A stretch of DNA of 64,000 nt from NCBI RefSeq assembly GCF_017352215.1, contig NZ_CP071444.1:2108001-2172000 (forward strand). The letters run 5' to 3'. The notes under the pieces are model-generated. The model had not been told where the DNA came from. It worked only from the letters and a program-made list of their open reading frames with translations, and made no database searches. Every line of letters starts with the position of its first letter. Within the stretch, counting starts at the first letter, position 1. Source of the stretch: Alkalibacter rhizosphaerae. GTDB taxonomy: Bacteria; Bacillota; Clostridia; Eubacteriales; Alkalibacteraceae. The position numbers and the translations under genes were made by a program. This document shows, piece by piece, positions 15,623 to 37,631 of the stretch.

Positions 15623-15973
15623 GGGGGCGCAATGGCTTCGACGGGGGTTTTGAAGCAAGAGAAGCGAGTCGATGTGTCCAATCATCGTTAAAAGTGGCAA
15701 CCTAAATATAAACGCTAAAAACAATAATTACGCCTTAGCTGCGTAAAGCAGCTTTCGTCCGACCCAGAAGACCTGCGATCAGGGACTCGGGCGTCAACCT
15801 AGCAGGGAACCGTTTCACAGGATGTCTCGACTGTAAAACGAACAATTGAGGCTGGTCCAATTGGAATTCTGTCACTGGAAGTCCAAGCGGCGAGATTAAA
15901 TAAGTGACTGCACTCGGAGAAACTCTTGTGAATGGACTTTCGGACGCGGGTTCGATTCCCGCCGCCTCCACCA
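15623..15973 (+). ncRNA. ssrA: Transfer-messenger RNA (tmRNA)
   Basis: A 351-nt one-piece tmRNA. The 5' end GGGGGCG pairs with the 3' CGCCTCC before the encoded ACCA. The start AATGGCTTCGACGGGGGTT is the typical tmRNA signature, and the 3' end holds the T-arm GGGTTCGATTCCC. The internal reading frame starts at GCT 15714 and encodes the tag AKNNNYALAA, then TAA at 15744. The tag keeps the YALAA degradation signal, while its N-terminal part is asparagine-rich rather than the common ANDE form. Confidence 0.97.
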
Positions 15974-16005
15974 ATATTTTCTATAATTGTAATAATATAA
16001 ATTAT

Positions 16006-16034
16006 GCCGCGTTAGCTTGCTGATGCGGTTTTTT
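16006..16034 (+). terminator. Terminator after ssrA
   Basis: GCCGC and GCGG arms enclose a 14-base loop region and are followed by TTTTTT. The position about 35 bases after the tmRNA CCA end fits transcription termination of ssrA. The next 200 bases, up to the blaI promoter at 16240, show no gene. Confidence 0.6.
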
Positions 16035-16239
16035 CTATGTGCCCAGCAGTGAAGACCATTTGCGGATTTGAAATCATGCATATGATTCAAAAAGGACAGG
16101 TTGAAGGAGTTTAATTTGTCCTTTCTAAAAGTGATTAACGAGTTGTATTGGATTGGCGCAAAAGATTTAAAAGAGACATTGGCTGGAATCTGCACTGTTG
16201 AAGTTTTTTGCACCGGAACCAAAAATCGCAGAAAATATA

Positions 16240-16293
16240 TTGACACTATTGTCTAATAACGATAGACTGTAATTGTCTAGAGGAAATAGACAA
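16240..16293 (+). promoter_or_regulatory. blaI-type promoter with two dyad operators
   Basis: TTGACA (16240-16245) and TAGACT (16263-16268) are 17 bases apart. Two copies of the same dyad occur: GTCTA-N7-TAGAC at 16251-16267, which covers the -10 region, and TTGTCTA-N7-TAGACAA at 16273-16293, just ahead of the ribosome site. Their centres are 24 bases apart. Paired dyads overlapping the promoter are typical of BlaI/MecI autoregulation. The exact core differs from the staphylococcal TACA/TGTA element. Confidence 0.75.
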
Positions 16294-16305
16294 GGAGGAA
16301 AAGTA

Positions 16306-16668
16306 ATGGAAAAATATAAACTAGGAGAAATGGAACAGAGATTTGCAGATTTGATTTGGGACCAAGCACCGATAAAGACGCGTGATCTCATTGCAAAGTG
16401 TTCCGAAGAATTCAATTGGAAAAGGACAACTACTTATACAATGCTCAAGCGCCTGTGCGATCGGGGAATTTTCATCAATGAAAACGGTTTTGTAACCGTG
16501 CTTATTCCGAAAAATGATTTCTTGACTGGCAAAGGCGAAGAATTCCTGGAAGAATCCTTCGGCGGCTCCCTACCAAAGTTTGTTGCTGCATTCGCAAAAC
16601 GTAAAAAGCTAAGCAAACGCGAAATAGAAGAAATACAGCAGCTCATTAACGATTACAAGAAGGAGTGA
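16306..16668 (+). CDS. BlaI/MecI-family transcriptional repressor
   Basis: A 120-residue winged-helix repressor. The N-terminal segment MEQRFADLIWDQAPIKTRDL and the recognition region FNWKRTTTYTMLKRLCDRGI match the BlaI/MecI/CopY pattern (x-W-x-R-T-T-V-x-T-x-L-x-R-L). The C-terminal half is the dimerisation region that BlaR1-type proteases trigger for cleavage. ATG 16306 follows AAGGAGG at about 7 bases. The stop codon lies 5 bases before the likely start of the M56 protease gene, so the two are translationally coupled. Confidence 0.9.
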   Translation: MEKYKLGEMEQRFADLIWDQAPIKTRDLIAKCSEEFNWKRTTTYTMLKRLCDRGIFINENGFVTVLIPKNDFLTGKGEEFLEESFGGSLPKFVAAFAKRKKLSKREIEEIQQLINDYKKE

Positions 16669-16673
16669 TCAAC

Positions 16674-18314
16674 GTGTTGGAACAGATGTTTCTCCAAGTG
16701 CTAAACATGACTTTTGTGGGGAGTTTTGTCATTCTGTTTGTTTTAGTTGCAAGACTTCTCCTTAAAAAAGCACCTAAAAAATATTCCTATTTGCTGTGGA
16801 TTGTTGTTTTGTTCCGGCTGATCGTCCCCTTTTCCGTGAAAAGTGTGCTGAGCTTGATTCCTGTGAATCCCACACCAATTGTTCGGGAAACCATCTACTC
16901 TGCAACACCCCAAATAACTACTGGTATCACTAACGTAGATCAATCCATTAATGCAATGTTACCAGCAATTCGTGGCAACGGAGCAGGAAACCCTATGGTG
17001 GACTGGATATTTTTTGCCGCCCTTCTTTGGCTTATGGGAGTTGCTTTTTTCATGATTTCCGGAGCTGTATCTCTAAGTAAAACAAAGAACTCAGTAAAAA
17101 ATGCGATTCACTGGAAAGACAATGTGTACCGTTCCAAAGAGGTGAAAATACCATTTGTAATGGGACTGGTTAAGCCAAGAATTTATATGCCGGACTATTT
17201 GAATCAAAGTGAAGAAGAATACATATTGCTTCATGAGCAAACCCACATCAAAAGGTTGGATCACGGTATTAGAATTTTAAGCTATCTAGTTTTGTCTCTG
17301 CATTGGTTCAATCCATTGGTATGGATCGCGTTTTGGCGAAGTGGGGACGATATGGAAATGTCTTGCGACGAGTCCGTCATCAATACATTAGGATACAGCT
17401 TAAAGAAAGACTATTCCCAATCCCTATTGAATTTTGCCACGGGGAAAAGGACTTTTGGTATATCTCCACTTGCCTTTGGAGAAGGAAATACAAAAGGGCG
17501 TATTAAAAACATATTGCGTTATAAAAAACCTAGGTTCTACATCATGCTGGCAATAGTAGTCATAGTGATTCCGCTAGCCATTGGGTTATTGCTGAATCCA
17601 GAAAACGAAACAGGCGCTCCATATATTGATCAAATCAATGAATGGAGCGAAAAAAACTTGGAACAAGCAGATAACTATACCATGCTTATCAATACAATCA
17701 ATATTTGGCGTGGTGAAGACGGCGTTGAATTAACGCATAGTGAAAGTGAATATGAAAGAGTAGTATTCTTTGACCCGTACAAAACAAAACAAACCACACT
17801 TTCAAAAACAGAATATACGACACAGGCATACTACGAATTGCATCAAAATGAAGAAATCGCACAATATTCATTCTTTTTGCAAGATGAGGTTTATGTTATT
17901 TCAAGGGTTACTAAAGAAGATTTGGGAGAATCTGCGGATGCCTTTGATAATTTGTATATTGGCGAAGGAGAACACAGCCCAGGACTGCTGTCCGGTATGG
18001 TTGATTATGAAGTAGTGGAAGAAACAGAGGAACAGTACGTGCTGAAAGCGACGATTGAACAGGGAGATCTTTATGGTGAAGTTGGAGCGAGCTTCATTTT
18101 AACCAACACACGAACAATCTACTATGACAAAACAAGCAATCAGGTAATGAAGGTGGAGAATCATGTAATACAGGATGCAGAGGTGCTGAATCCAGGCATG
18201 ACAGTCGATGGACAATCTGTTAAGGAAATGGATTTCACCACCACGATACAATATGTCAATATCAATACATCTGAGGACTTTGATTTGCCAGAGGGTGAGG
18301 AGCTTGTCAACTAA
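16674..18314 (+). CDS. BlaR1-like M56 sensor metalloprotease with a non-penicillin-binding sensor domain
   Basis: A 546-residue membrane protein. Helices near the N-terminus are followed by a zinc-protease core with HEQTH at residues 187-191, a final transmembrane helix (MLAIVVIVIPLAIGLLL) and an external domain from about residue 314 to the end. In BlaR1 the external domain is a penicillin-binding serine enzyme; here there is no SxxK/KTG pattern. Instead the domain is homologous along its length to the lipoprotein at 18812-19606. By analogy it should sense an envelope signal and inactivate the adjacent repressor. GTG 16674 was chosen over GTG 16665 for its ribosome-site spacing (AAGGAG, 8 bases). 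Confidence 0.85.
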   Translation: MLEQMFLQVLNMTFVGSFVILFVLVARLLLKKAPKKYSYLLWIVVLFRLIVPFSVKSVLSLIPVNPTPIVRETIYSATPQITTGITNVDQSINAMLPAIRGNGAGNPMVDWIFFAALLWLMGVAFFMISGAVSLSKTKNSVKNAIHWKDNVYRSKEVKIPFVMGLVKPRIYMPDYLNQSEEEYILLHEQTHIKRLDHGIRILSYLVLSLHWFNPLVWIAFWRSGDDMEMSCDESVINTLGYSLKKDYSQSLLNFATGKRTFGISPLAFGEGNTKGRIKNILRYKKPRFYIMLAIVVIVIPLAIGLLLNPENETGAPYIDQINEWSEKNLEQADNYTMLINTINIWRGEDGVELTHSESEYERVVFFDPYKTKQTTLSKTEYTTQAYYELHQNEEIAQYSFFLQDEVYVISRVTKEDLGESADAFDNLYIGEGEHSPGLLSGMVDYEVVEETEEQYVLKATIEQGDLYGEVGASFILTNTRTIYYDKTSNQVMKVENHVIQDAEVLNPGMTVDGQSVKEMDFTTTIQYVNINTSEDFDLPEGEELVN

Positions 18315-18351
18315 CTTCTATTGTGTAATTGGTGGATATTACGACATGATT

Positions 18352-18374
18352 AAGCTGGGGAACCCAGCTTTTTT
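18352..18374 (+). terminator. Terminator after the M56 protease gene
   Basis: AAGCTGGG-GAA-CCCAGCTT is a perfect 8-bp stem with a 3-base loop, followed by TTTT. It ends the repressor-protease transcript. Confidence 0.88.
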
Positions 18375-18450
18375 GTTGCTTTAAATTTTCAGTAATGCTA
18401 GACTAATAACAGTAATTTAAAGTGTGAGTTATTTATAGGAGTGACAAAAA

Positions 18451-18666
18451 ATGAAAAAGGAAATTGTTATATTCATAGTTGCTTATATTGTTGCAACCAT
18501 CATTCGGGGATTGATTTTTCTCTATACTGGGTTTTCTTTTAATATTTTTCAAGACAGATTTGGTTTAATACCCTTTTTAGGGGACGTTATGATCTGGGCA
18601 CTATCATATATAGGAGTAAGATTGGTTATTATTAACTTGGCTGTTAAGAGAATTAAATCTTCCTAA
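18451..18666 (+). CDS. Small two-helix membrane protein, unknown
   Basis: A 71-residue protein with two predicted membrane segments (residues about 4-25 and 43-64) joined by a loop, and a basic C-terminus (KRIKSS). TAGGAG precedes the ATG at 6-8 bases, and codon use looks like that of its neighbours, so I regard it as real. I do not recognise the family. It sits between the M56 protease and the sensor-like lipoprotein, in the same orientation. Confidence 0.6.
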   Translation: MKKEIVIFIVAYIVATIIRGLIFLYTGFSFNIFQDRFGLIPFLGDVMIWALSYIGVRLVIINLAVKRIKSS

Positions 18667-18811
18667 TAGGTGGATACAGCGTACTAAAGCTGGGAGCTCG
18701 CCCTGATTTTTCGTATTTTTTCGGTACTGAGTTCAACTACGATATGACCAGAGTTAAGAGAAACAACTTCTATATTGCTAATATAATTTGTGTAAGGTTG
18801 GAGGTAAACAC

Positions 18812-19606
18812 ATGAAATTCAAAAAAGAACACATGATTTTAGTGCTTTTATTGATGCTATCTTTAATCGTTGTTGGGTGTGCTGGACAAGCATCTAGTTC
18901 TGATGAAGGTCCATACATTGCCGGTATTAAAAAGTGGAGCTATAATAACTTGGAAAACGTAAATAACTACACGGTTATTGCTGATGTCACTAATTTATAC
19001 CTTGATGAAGATGGAAATGAAATTCGTAGAAACGAGAGCCGTGGTGAAAGAATAATATTTTACGATCCATATAGAACAAAGGTAACCACTTTATCAGAGA
19101 CGGAATATCCAACGGCACCTAGTTATGCGTTGCATCAAAATGGAACCATCACGAATTATTTTTATTTTCTTCAAGAGGAAAAATATTTAGTAAGCGAAAT
19201 AACAGAAGAAACATATCCGGAGCCAGCACTTTTTGATAGTCTATATATTGGAAATGGTGAACGTACCCAAGGGATACTATTGGGTATGGTTGATTATGAA
19301 ATTTTAGAAGACACTGATGAACAAGTAGTTATCAAAGCGACAATAAACCCGGAAGAAGTACATGGCGCGGCAATTGAGTATATGTATATTAAATCACTAA
19401 CGCAAACTGTTTATTATAATAAGGACACCCAACAGGTTATTAAGGTCGAAGATCATCAACTTGTTAATACACAAGAACTTTCACCGAACATGGTGATAGA
19501 CGGTAAATCAGTTTATGAGCAGGATCTTACTATAGTATCTGAATATAAAAATATTAATTCATCACCAGACTTTGAATTGCCAAAAGATGACGAGATTATC
19601 AGTTGA
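18812..19606 (+). CDS. Lipoprotein homologous to the external sensor domain of the neighbouring M56 protease
   Basis: A 264-residue lipoprotein. The signal peptide ends in LIVVGC, so the mature protein is anchored through a cysteine at about residue 21. From PYIAGIKKWS to the end it aligns with the external domain of the M56 protease (PYIDQINEWS onwards), sharing blocks such as GMVDYE, LYIG-GE, DPY-TK-TTLS-TEY, and a Y-NIN-S-DF-LP end. I estimate about 40-45% identity by eye. TTGGAGGT lies 7-8 bases before ATG 18812. It may compete for, bind or present the sensor's ligand. No function is known to me. Confidence 0.85.
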   Translation: MKFKKEHMILVLLLMLSLIVVGCAGQASSSDEGPYIAGIKKWSYNNLENVNNYTVIADVTNLYLDEDGNEIRRNESRGERIIFYDPYRTKVTTLSETEYPTAPSYALHQNGTITNYFYFLQEEKYLVSEITEETYPEPALFDSLYIGNGERTQGILLGMVDYEILEDTDEQVVIKATINPEEVHGAAIEYMYIKSLTQTVYYNKDTQQVIKVEDHQLVNTQELSPNMVIDGKSVYEQDLTIVSEYKNINSSPDFELPKDDEIIS

Positions 19607-19697
19607 CTTCCATTGAAACATTCTGCGCAGTAGATGGATAATATGTCGTGATAGGTGGATATTGAGAAGTAACTTAAGATTATGAGGTGTATTTTAT

Positions 19698-19868
19698 ATG
19701 GAAATAGCGGTTATAAAGGGAAGTGTGAATTATATAGATGATTACGAGAATGCATTAGTAAATTCGGAACTGGGGAAAAGAGATTTTTCAGAAGAGGGAA
19801 AAGCTCGAAAAGCACTAGAAGAAGGAATTTGTAGATTTGTTTTGTGGATGTATGCACAATTTAGCTGA
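19698..19868 (+). CDS. Small 56-residue protein, unknown
   Basis: An open frame of 56 codons starting MEIAVIKGSVNYID. GAGGTG sits 8 bases before the ATG. The stop at 19866 is 15 bases before the next gene's ATG, whose ribosome site immediately follows, so the two could be cotranscribed. The product is soluble and charged in the middle (GKRDFSEEGKARKALEEG) with an aromatic C-terminus. I do not recognise it. The ribosome site and spacing are the main support. Confidence 0.5.
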   Translation: MEIAVIKGSVNYIDDYENALVNSELGKRDFSEEGKARKALEEGICRFVLWMYAQFS

Positions 19869-19883
19869 GACTAGGAGGTTTAT

Positions 19884-21938
19884 ATGGAAAAGATATTTGC
19901 CAAAAGCATAAAACTGGTTTCAGTACTGATCATTGTATTAATCTTATTTATTCAATCATCAGTTTTTGCTATTTCGGTACCGGGTTCCATGACGGTATCG
20001 GCAAAATCCACGTATGCAGCAGGAGAAAGCATCGTGTTCAACTGGACGGCCTCCAGCGGCGCGACCAAATACGGATTGTCCGTGTGGAAGGAACCATACG
20101 GCAACGACCAGTACTTGGTATTTGACAACTATGTAACCGGAACCTCCAAGAACATCGGATCCTTGCCGGCAGGGAAATACTGTGTGCAGATGAAGCCATA
20201 CAATAGTGCCGGTGGCGGACCAAACAGCAATGTGGTCTATTTCACGGTGCAATCATCACAGCCCACTGTATCGGTACCGGGTTCCATGACGGTAACGGCA
20301 AAATCCACGTATGCAGCAGGAGAAAGCATCGTGTTCAACTGGACGGCATCCAGCGGTGCAGCCAAATACGGATTGTCCGTATGGAAGGAACCATACGGAA
20401 ACGACCAGTACTTGGTGTTTGACAACTATGTAACCGGAACCTCCAAGAACATCGGATCCTTGCCGGCAGGGAAATACTGTGTGCAGATGAAGCCATACAA
20501 TAGTGCCGGTGGCGGACCAAACAGCAATGTGGTCTATTTCACGGTGCAATCATCACAACCCACAGTAACGGTACCGGGTTCCATGACGGTATCGGCAAAA
20601 TCCACGTATGCAGCAGGAGAAAGCGTCGTGTTCAACTGGACGGCCTCCAGCGGCGCGACCAAATACGGATTGTCCGTATGGAAGGAACCATACGGAAACG
20701 ACCAGTACTTGGTGTTTGACAACTATGTAACCGGAACCTCCAAGAACATCGGATCCTTGCCGGCAGGGAAATACTGTGTGCAGATGAAGCCATACAATAG
20801 CGCCGGTGGCGGGCCAAACAGCAATGTGGTTTACTTCACGGTGCAATCATCACAACCCACAGTAACGGTACCGGGCTCCATGACGGTATCGGCAAAATCC
20901 ACGTATGCAGCAGGAGAAAGCGTCGTGTTCAATTGGACGGCATCCAGCGGTGCAGCCAAATACGGATTGTCCGTATGGAAGGAACCATACGGAAACGACC
21001 AGTACTTGGTGTTTGACAACTATGTAACCGGAACCTCCAAGAACATCGGATCCTTGCCGGCAGGGAGATACTGTGTGCAGATGAAGCCATACAATAGTGC
21101 CGGTGGTGGGCCAAACAGCAATGTGGTCTATTTCACGGTGTATGAAAAAGCGACGATGAAAAATCCGCTTGTGCAGGAAGAAGAACCGATTGGTAAATAT
21201 ATACCTCCACCTGTAAAAACTACTAATGATTCAAAAGAAACGTCTGAATCGGTCAATAATGATAGTGATGAAACCATTTCAGATGCGGCTAAAGAATCAA
21301 AAAATATCTTTGATTTTGTGTCTGAAAAGATTTCAGTCAGTGTTTCTAAAGTGATTTCGTGGATCAAAGGATTCTTTAATAGCAATGATGATAAGGAATC
21401 TACGCCGACTCAAACACCGAAACCATCACTTATACCAGAAAAGGAACAAATTAATTCGGATGTTCCTGAACAAAATGTTGAACCGGATCTTATAAATGAA
21501 AGGATAGCTGAGGTTGCGGAGACTTATGCTAATGGAACTTGGGGTGGTCAGTGTAAAGCTTTTGTGAATAGTGTCGTCTCAAAGGCAAGTGATGGAAAGA
21601 TCAGCGTTGGTAATGGTTATCAAAATGCATTTGCGAGAGCAGGAGGTATAGAGATAAACCCTCAAGATGCTGTACGAGGAGACATTATTCAGGTTACTCC
21701 TGCAGGAAGTGATGGCAGCTCTGTTTATGATATGTATGACAAAAACGATCCATCGAAACAATTACATACCGCAATAATACTTTCTAATAGTGGGGGCGGG
21801 AATTTTTGGGTCATCGATTCCAATACTTTTTATTCAAAACTCAATCCGGTAATGACACCAGAACTTGTCTTTCGGCATTCGTATAATCCATACTCCAGCG
21901 CGGCTGGGAGTATCATTAAAATATGGAGGCTAAATTAG
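19884..21938 (+). CDS. Secreted protein with four ~99-residue repeats and a C-terminal CHAP/NlpC-like domain
   Basis: A 684-residue exported protein. A signal peptide (to about residue 29, ending SSVFA) is followed by four nearly identical beta-rich repeats of 99 residues beginning PGSMTV and ending YFTVQSSQPTV, of fibronectin-III-like character. A charged, Ser/Pro-rich linker (about residues 425-545) leads to a C-terminal domain with GGQCKAFV (Cys 557) and LHTAII (His 628), the Cys-His arrangement of CHAP or NlpC/P60 peptidoglycan hydrolases. AGGAGG precedes the ATG. It probably binds and trims the cell wall, downstream of the BlaR1-like sensing genes. Confidence 0.8.
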   Translation: MEKIFAKSIKLVSVLIIVLILFIQSSVFAISVPGSMTVSAKSTYAAGESIVFNWTASSGATKYGLSVWKEPYGNDQYLVFDNYVTGTSKNIGSLPAGKYCVQMKPYNSAGGGPNSNVVYFTVQSSQPTVSVPGSMTVTAKSTYAAGESIVFNWTASSGAAKYGLSVWKEPYGNDQYLVFDNYVTGTSKNIGSLPAGKYCVQMKPYNSAGGGPNSNVVYFTVQSSQPTVTVPGSMTVSAKSTYAAGESVVFNWTASSGATKYGLSVWKEPYGNDQYLVFDNYVTGTSKNIGSLPAGKYCVQMKPYNSAGGGPNSNVVYFTVQSSQPTVTVPGSMTVSAKSTYAAGESVVFNWTASSGAAKYGLSVWKEPYGNDQYLVFDNYVTGTSKNIGSLPAGRYCVQMKPYNSAGGGPNSNVVYFTVYEKATMKNPLVQEEEPIGKYIPPPVKTTNDSKETSESVNNDSDETISDAAKESKNIFDFVSEKISVSVSKVISWIKGFFNSNDDKESTPTQTPKPSLIPEKEQINSDVPEQNVEPDLINERIAEVAETYANGTWGGQCKAFVNSVVSKASDGKISVGNGYQNAFARAGGIEINPQDAVRGDIIQVTPAGSDGSSVYDMYDKNDPSKQLHTAIILSNSGGGNFWVIDSNTFYSKLNPVMTPELVFRHSYNPYSSAAGSIIKIWRLN
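19974..21140 (+). repeat. Four tandem 297-bp repeats inside the secreted protein gene
   Basis: Units begin at 19974, 20271, 20568 and 20865, each at TCGGTACCGG or ACGGTACCGG. The last is cut short near 21140. DNA identity between units is very high, with scattered, mostly third-position differences (for example GCGACC against GCAGCC). This pattern fits recent duplication or ongoing gene conversion, so copy number may vary between strains. Confidence 0.95.
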
Positions 21939-36656: not shown

Positions 36657-37631
36657 TTATTTTGTTTTGACGGCAGTTTCGCCAGTGATCGTACTTTCTT
36701 TTTCGTTCACAAAGCTATCCATCATTTCCTGATTTGCAAAGTATAGGTTGCCTTCGATTTTTGCATCCGTCAACTTGAAGTTTGTAGTTTCTACATATAC
36801 GTCGCCAACGAATGTACCACCTTGGATCTTTGAATTCGGGCTCTTGATCGTCAAGGAAGGAGCGGTCAACGTGTATCTAGCAGTGACGTTTCGGTCTGCA
36901 TCTTGGGCATAGAGAGCGATTTTTCGATACAATTCAAGGGATGTATCGTCTTTATCATAGAAATCACCTTCCAGTACCAATTCTTGTTTGGTCGTAATGT
37001 TATTCAGCGCAGCGATGATCCAGGTTCCTTCGGTACCGATGGCATCGATGAAAGCAGTATCGTCGATCAGCAGGGAAGCAGTTGTAACAACGTCTGCGCC
37101 ATCAACAACGATTTTACCTGTCACTTTTCCACCGTTTTCCACAGTGAAAGCATTGGCCAATTCGGAAGAAGCAAAGTACACATCTCCATCAATCGTTGCA
37201 TCCGTCAACTTGAAACCTTCAGATTCAACATAAACATCACCAACGAATGTTCCGCCTTGGATCTTGGTGTTGGGGCTTTTCACCGTCAACTTTGGAGCTT
37301 TCAACGTATATCTATCTGTTACTTTGTGATCAGCATCTTGAGCATAAAGTGCAAGTTTGCGATAAAGATTGGACGTAGCATCGTCCTTGTTGTAAAAATC
37401 ACCTTCGATTACCAGCTCTTTATCGGTCTCAACGTCATTCAAAGTACAGACGATCCACTTGCCATCCGCTCCAATGGAAGCCTCTAGTACAGCCGCATCT
37501 TCCACCAAGGAAGCAGCAGTGACGGTATCGTTACCACCATCCGTGTTGTCATCGCCATTGTCGGATGAACCGCATCCTGCAAATAAAACTAGGGATAAAG
37601 CCAATAATACGATCAAAGATTTGAATTTCAT
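36657..37631 (-). CDS. Lipoprotein with two internal repeats, unknown
   Basis: A 324-residue lipoprotein (signal ending LVLFAGC) with an Asp/Asn/Gly-rich spacer and two repeats of about 150 residues. Each repeat runs LVIEGDFYNKDD, then LYRKLALYAQDAD, RYTLKAP, the stretch SPNTKIQGGTFVGDVYVE, then FKLTDATIDGDVYFAS (second copy with close variants). The G-x-V-Y-V and G-x-L-Y-F steps suggest a right-handed beta-solenoid surface. I do not recognise the family. AGGAGG precedes the ATG, and a strong promoter lies upstream. Confidence 0.75.
   Translation of the reverse strand: MKFKSLIVLLALSLVLFAGCGSSDNGDDNTDGGNDTVTAASLVEDAAVLEASIGADGKWIVCTLNDVETDKELVIEGDFYNKDDATSNLYRKLALYAQDADHKVTDRYTLKAPKLTVKSPNTKIQGGTFVGDVYVESEGFKLTDATIDGDVYFASSELANAFTVENGGKVTGKIVVDGADVVTTASLLIDDTAFIDAIGTEGTWIIAALNNITTKQELVLEGDFYDKDDTSLELYRKIALYAQDADRNVTARYTLTAPSLTIKSPNSKIQGGTFVGDVYVETTNFKLTDAKIEGNLYFANQEMMDSFVNEKESTITGETAVKTK

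Follow-up and report, generated by a model that had tools for sequence, protein, structure and literature searches.

The window analysed here is the whole 64,000-nucleotide stretch of Alkalibacter rhizosphaerae DNA. It contains a blaI-M56-lipoprotein locus that begins approximately 0.3 kb behind ssrA, with the following features.

15623-15973, + strand: ssrA (tmRNA); the AT-rich segment with the locus starts at its 3' end.
16240-16268, + strand: promoter of blaI-M56, TTGACA - 17 nt - TAGACT, with its -10 element inside operator 1.
16249-16269, + strand: BlaI-type operator 1, TTGTCTA-ATAACGA-TAGACTG.
16273-16293, + strand: BlaI-type operator 2, TTGTCTA-GAGGAAA-TAGACAA, a perfect dyad that ends at the Shine-Dalgarno sequence.
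16306-16668, + strand: blaI-like repressor, 120 aa, ATG start assigned by comparison with relatives (Pfam PF03965, 3e-22).
16674-18314, + strand: M56 (BlaR1-type) membrane metalloprotease, 546 aa, HEQTH (Pfam PF05569, 7.9e-56, 189.8 bits).
17619-18311, + strand: M56 ectodomain, copy 1 of the domain, orphan family, predicted to be LolA/RseB/LppX-like.
18325-18338, + strand: tail motif GTAATTGGTGGATA after M56.
18352-18370, + strand: intrinsic terminator after M56.
18376-18404, + strand: possible promoter of the downstream pair of genes, TTGCTT-17-TAGACT.
18451-18666, + strand: ORF71, a small predicted membrane protein that matches no known family; it lies between the M56 and lipoprotein genes.
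18812-19606, + strand: lipoprotein of 264 aa with the lipobox LIVVGC (Cys 23); its mature part is the second copy of the ectodomain.
18666-18676 (after ORF71) and 19651-19661 (after the lipoprotein gene): related tail motif ATAGGTGGATA.

The ORF listing opens blaI at TTG 16273, and ATG 16306 was taken as the start. The M56 frame is open from GTG 16665 (16665-18314), and the true start is likely GTG 16674, giving 546 residues in agreement with relatives beginning MLEKIF. The blaI and M56 genes overlap or abut. The first-pass annotation had described the protease as BlaR1-like and had placed its external domain at residues 314-546; the framework was supported by the PF05569 and PF03965 matches and by the BlaI-type operators, and the numbering agrees with the start at 16674. 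Its coordinates for the duplicated domain (17613-19606) were also correct, with the small membrane-protein ORF at 18451-18666 lying inside them as well.

Both promoter dyads, which are predicted BlaI operators, have the form TGTCTA-N7-TAGACA. Operator 1 was found at the same promoter-relative position in Acetobacterium-like relatives and in a second blaI-M56 operon of this genome, and the dual-operator layout ahead of blaI was also found in the Acetobacterium-like relatives and at many other loci. When up to one mismatch was allowed, the operator pattern occurred three times in the whole genome, with two of the sites at this locus and the third ahead of the other blaI-M56 operon. Since these are the only sites and all of them lie at blaI promoters, the strong regulon presumably consists of the two operons themselves. 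The two BlaI repressors of the genome may cross-regulate each other's promoter. The second operon (L213 4737-6542, L005) carried the same operators and an M56 gene with a different, unrelated ectodomain; its neighbourhood yielded no related lipoprotein.

The M56 and lipoprotein genes are separated by the terminator and by a separate, AT-richer stretch; therefore, they need not be co-expressed. A weak partial operator (18385-18405) near the possible downstream promoter was not above background. The best candidate BlaI operator for the lipoprotein gene scored 4.2 bits; since the window has 16 positions of this kind, no claim is made for it. The lipoprotein gene has an intact frame and a good Shine-Dalgarno sequence. 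By inspection of the translation, its product has a predicted signal peptide with lipobox and Cys+1, MKFKKEHMILVLLLMLSLIVVGC, and the lipobox predicts lipid anchoring on the external side of the membrane. ORF71 also has a good Shine-Dalgarno sequence.

The claim that the external domain of the protease and the lipoprotein are homologous from end to end held. The M56 ectodomain (residues approximately 316-546; DNA 17619-18311) aligned end to end with the lipoprotein (18812-19606) at 47-48% identity in the domain. BLASTP of M56 against the lipoprotein gave 237 bits; the 267 aligned columns, of which 43% were identical and 67% positive, included the C-terminus of both proteins. The Smith-Waterman score of the two sequences was 591, whereas 1000 shuffles scored 43 +/- 7.5 with a maximum of 83; the observed score was thus more than 70 standard deviations above the shuffles. 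Codon-position identities of the two copies were 64/72/42%, and dN was 0.42 with pS at 0.75, i.e., with synonymous sites saturated. It follows from this saturation, combined with the dN value, that the duplication is old and that both copies are under purifying selection and have been retained by selection. The closed 2.45-Mb genome contains these two copies of the domain only.

The nature of the domain was studied at the levels of sequence and fold. The ectodomain matched no Pfam or NCBIfam family, and a PDB sequence search with the domain gave no match. A class D or penicillin-binding ectodomain was ruled out because there was no SxxK or KTG motif and no Pfam/NCBIfam match; the NCBIfam model blaR1_generic scored 98.9 bits (cut-off 400) and covered residues 16-302 only. 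No sequence match to the LolA-like superfamily was found among Pfam and PDB sequences at E values up to 10. AlphaFold2 models built from two-row alignments were poor for both copies (mean pLDDT 47.5 and 51.7). Both of these low-confidence models had an N-terminal helix followed by long antiparallel strands, which is the element order of the LolA-like N-terminal helix and approximately 11-strand half-barrel. Foldseek placed LolA chains at ranks 1-3 for the first model (best E 0.04) and at ranks 1-5 for the second (best E 2.9e-3, probability 0.92), with no E value below 1e-3 for either. In VIA-align, the first model matched LolA, RseB and LppX with Z scores of 6.2-6.5; for the second, Z was below 7 and porins were mixed in above LolA, and values of approximately 5-6.5 across both models are below the level taken as firm. 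The structure prediction proposed in the first-pass annotation thus gave a resemblance to the LolA/RseB/LppX fold for both domains, in low-confidence models. The LolA-like fold is a lead that is probably correct, and a LolA/RseB/LppX-like half-barrel holding a lipid or an amphiphile is supported but not shown.

The predicted helix and antiparallel half-barrel, which come from weak models, would be shared with RseB/MucB, LolA, LppX/LprG and GerS, a group of lipoprotein or periplasmic partners that regulate envelope signalling or an amidase. MucB is lipid-sensing and has a LolA-like fold (PMC7400510), and GerS, a LolA-fold lipoprotein of a clostridium, is an allosteric partner (PMC8496864). The domain described here differs from this group in its sequence, and the use of LolA-like proteins as M56 ectodomains was not reported in the literature searched.

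The domain was not found in 100 relatives, in 67 genomes of the order, or in a 391-genome sample of the class and a 398-genome sample of the phylum (the samples overlap). In the samples of the order, class and phylum, profile searches returned chance matches only (FtsH, RecQ, signal peptides). The domain was likewise not found in plasmids or phages, nor in viral contigs or genome contigs scanned with peptide patterns (two for the genome contigs), such scans being narrow tests, and an hhalign comparison with ectodomain clusters did not outperform the reversed profile. Conservation in relatives, on which the earlier claim had been made to depend together with an alignment better than shuffled sequence, was therefore not observed: in all collections searched, the domain occurred only in this M56/lipoprotein pair. 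This confinement limits generality and leaves the homology untouched, since the alignment did exceed the shuffles (591 versus at most 83 in 1000).

For none of the 139 M56 ORFs outside this locus did a neighbouring ORF resemble the ectodomain of that M56 protein (flanks of up to 7 kb for 80 loci and of approximately 1.5 kb for the rest). A lipoprotein-like ORF of any kind was located within 2.5 kb downstream of M56 in 2 of the 64 cases with enough sequence. At another locus (L049 6885-9597), genes for a membrane-fusion-protein-like lipoprotein and an ABC transporter begin 26 bp after the M56 gene, forming a possible BlaI-controlled efflux operon.

In Acetobacterium-like genomes, M56 cores were 52-55% identical and carried unrelated ectodomains, making the M56 sensor a swappable module. 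Among 98 ectodomain sequences, including the two copies from this window, the commonest families were DUF4825 (11), DUF4829 (5) and DUF5301 (4), and transpeptidase, amidase and other cell-wall domains were also present. Searches for DUF4825 and DUF4829 yielded both M56-fused forms and free lipobox lipoproteins; the latter were found at loci L164, L171, L173, L177, L180, L182, L188, L191 and L192, with no blaI or M56 gene within approximately 1.4 kb. A general exchange of modules between Clostridia M56 sensors and lipoproteins is suggested by these shared families. The literature search found no report on duplicated sensor lipoproteins and no paper naming DUF4825. The earlier view that BlaR1-type sensor modules have no described free counterpart was too strong in view of the DUF4825/DUF4829 lipoproteins and the free OXA relatives; what stands is that such a copy as a tandem neighbour is unusual (0 of 139).

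Traces of how the copy arose were found in the flanks. Of the four occurrences of the 8-mer GGTGGATA in the 64 kb, three lie directly behind stop codons, namely those of M56, ORF71 and the lipoprotein gene. Compared with base shuffles, the M56 tail resembled the ORF71 tail (p 0.007) and the lipoprotein tail (p 0.03), and the alignment of the ORF71 tail with the lipoprotein tail was not significant. Similarity thus seems to extend past the stop codons of the three genes. When the lipoprotein N-terminus, MKFKKEHMILVLLLMLSLIVVGC, was aligned with LRYKKPRFYIMLAIVVIVIPLAIGLL, the final transmembrane segment of M56, the score was 23, and only 2 of 44 control lipoprotein-like N-termini scored as high, a weak hint. 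The tail motifs and this likeness were taken as weak signs that the tandem duplication included the 3' flank and that the signal peptide was derived from a transmembrane segment. The reverse origin, in which the lipoprotein gene was fused to an M56 core and displaced an older ectodomain, is a doubtful alternative. The unrelated ectodomains borne by the related cores show that domains were swapped, and ectodomain families also have free lipoproteins, both of which favour it; against it stand, neither of them strong, the N-terminal likeness, which points to the direction from M56 to lipoprotein, and the possible similarity in the 3' flank. This alternative concerns history only and is compatible with any functional reading.

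The surroundings of the locus were also considered. Over 16.0-19.9 kb, GC content drops to 0.35-0.40 from 0.47-0.50, and the lipoprotein gene has a GC3 of 0.27 versus 0.61 in rnr. Judged from translations, the region 3' of ssrA holds serine recombinase-like genes in one relative and prophage-like genes in another; a search of the 64-kb window for an att-like repeat of this ssrA end gave nothing. The AT-rich stretch behind ssrA (15623-19900) looks like a variable insertion site, with which the differing cargo in relatives fits, and such a site would account for the domain not being found in other members of the genus. Two further proteins of the window contain internal repeats. One, an exported protein (19884-21938), contains nearly four Ig-like tandem repeats of 297 bp that are almost identical to one another (96% matches); behind them come a stretch rich in proline and threonine and a weak match to CHAP (peptidoglycan hydrolase). 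The other, a lipoprotein (36657-37631), has two internal copies of an approximately 150-residue domain with a weak bactofilin-like match.

The locus shares with BlaR1-BlaI and MecR1-MecI of S. aureus and B. licheniformis a repressor-M56 operon with BlaI-type operators over the promoter, and an HExxH M56 core with one C-terminal extracellular sensor. Unlike in BlaR1/MecR1, the ectodomain is not penicillin-binding class D-like, the sensor has a free lipoprotein paralogue, and no linked beta-lactamase or PBP gene was recognised among the ORFs scanned at 13-25 kb. The BlaR proteins belong to the OXA family together with the class D beta-lactamases, and in 963 strains one member of each kind occurs (PMC9045261). 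There, too, a single ligand-binding module serves both as the ectodomain of an M56 protein and in free, exported form, and some strains have both; however, the free copy is an enzyme, whereas here both copies are of an orphan domain and lie in tandem. The DUF4825/DUF4829 families show the same kind of ectodomain exchange, with M56 proteases on one side and free lipoproteins on the other, in the same bacterial class, but they are other domain families and the free copies examined are not beside blaI or M56.

The first-pass annotation had offered a decoy, a ligand carrier or a co-sensor as roles for the lipoprotein. The reading preferred here, to which we assign a probability of approximately 0.4, is BlaI/M56 signalling with a non-beta-lactam sensor, in which the lipoprotein copy would bind the same ligand and act as a first-line sink or presenter that sets the threshold. 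By analogy with BlaR1 (PMC9834060), a ligand at the ectodomain would change the M56 core; the activated protease would then cleave BlaI, and both blaI promoters would be derepressed. The lipoprotein would be made without strong BlaI control and, having the same binding module at the same membrane face, would most likely bind the same ligand. As a sink or presenter, it would set the amount of ligand reaching the sensor and hence the threshold of the sensor. Such sharing of a ligand-binding module would parallel that of free class D enzymes and BlaR1. The terminator after M56 and the lack of an operator above background at the lipoprotein gene are consistent with this reading. Against it stand the occurrence of the pair in one genome only, the weak fold models, and the terminator and AT-richer stretch between the two genes.

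That the lipoprotein is independent, i.e., a domain copy with a separate envelope function whose place beside M56 is a trace of tandem duplication, is an unlikely alternative. It agrees with the lack of a strong BlaI operator at the lipoprotein gene and with the free DUF4825/DUF4829 lipoproteins that lie apart from blaI and M56 genes. However, the copies have remained side by side until synonymous saturation, despite a hypervariable, gene-losing site, which suggests linked function.

It is no more probable that the system is a lipid- or amphiphile-sensing one of the BlaR1 type in which a membrane-anchored sensor paralogue directly controls M56 as a decoy or RseB-like co-sensor. In the RseB-like form, which is the main rival to the sink or presenter and rather improbable, the lipoprotein would bind M56 via an inherited dimer contact and keep the protease inactive until ligand releases it. 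BlaR1 is a dimer with a mobile sensor domain in which extracellular loop 1 signals (PMC9834060); MucB lets its partner go on lipid binding (PMC7400510), and GerS acts as a strand-exchanged dimer (PMC8496864). The close relation of the two copies and the neighbourhood of their genes also favour docking. However, divergence to 47% identity may have erased a common interface, and the target of RseB is an anti-sigma factor, not an M56 protease. If direct control were true, a lipoprotein-controlled M56 would be an example of a wider trade in ligand-binding modules between M56 proteases and lipoproteins in Clostridia. A non-functional relic or a chance similarity, which would accord with a domain known from this genome only, is refuted by the distance of the alignment score from the shuffles and by the intact frame, lipobox, Shine-Dalgarno sequence and purifying selection.

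Therefore, it may be concluded that the tandem duplication of the sensor domain is real and well preserved, and that the arrangement is unusual, a single occurrence, and in principle with precedent. In Clostridia M56/BlaI systems, most sensors have no assigned ligand. The free lipoprotein would provide a soluble handle on the sensor module, which could be expressed to identify the bound ligand and to measure its effect on the protease. Since M56 ectodomains and free lipoproteins share families such as DUF4825 and DUF4829, the ligands of uncharacterised M56 sensors might likewise be approached via their free relatives.
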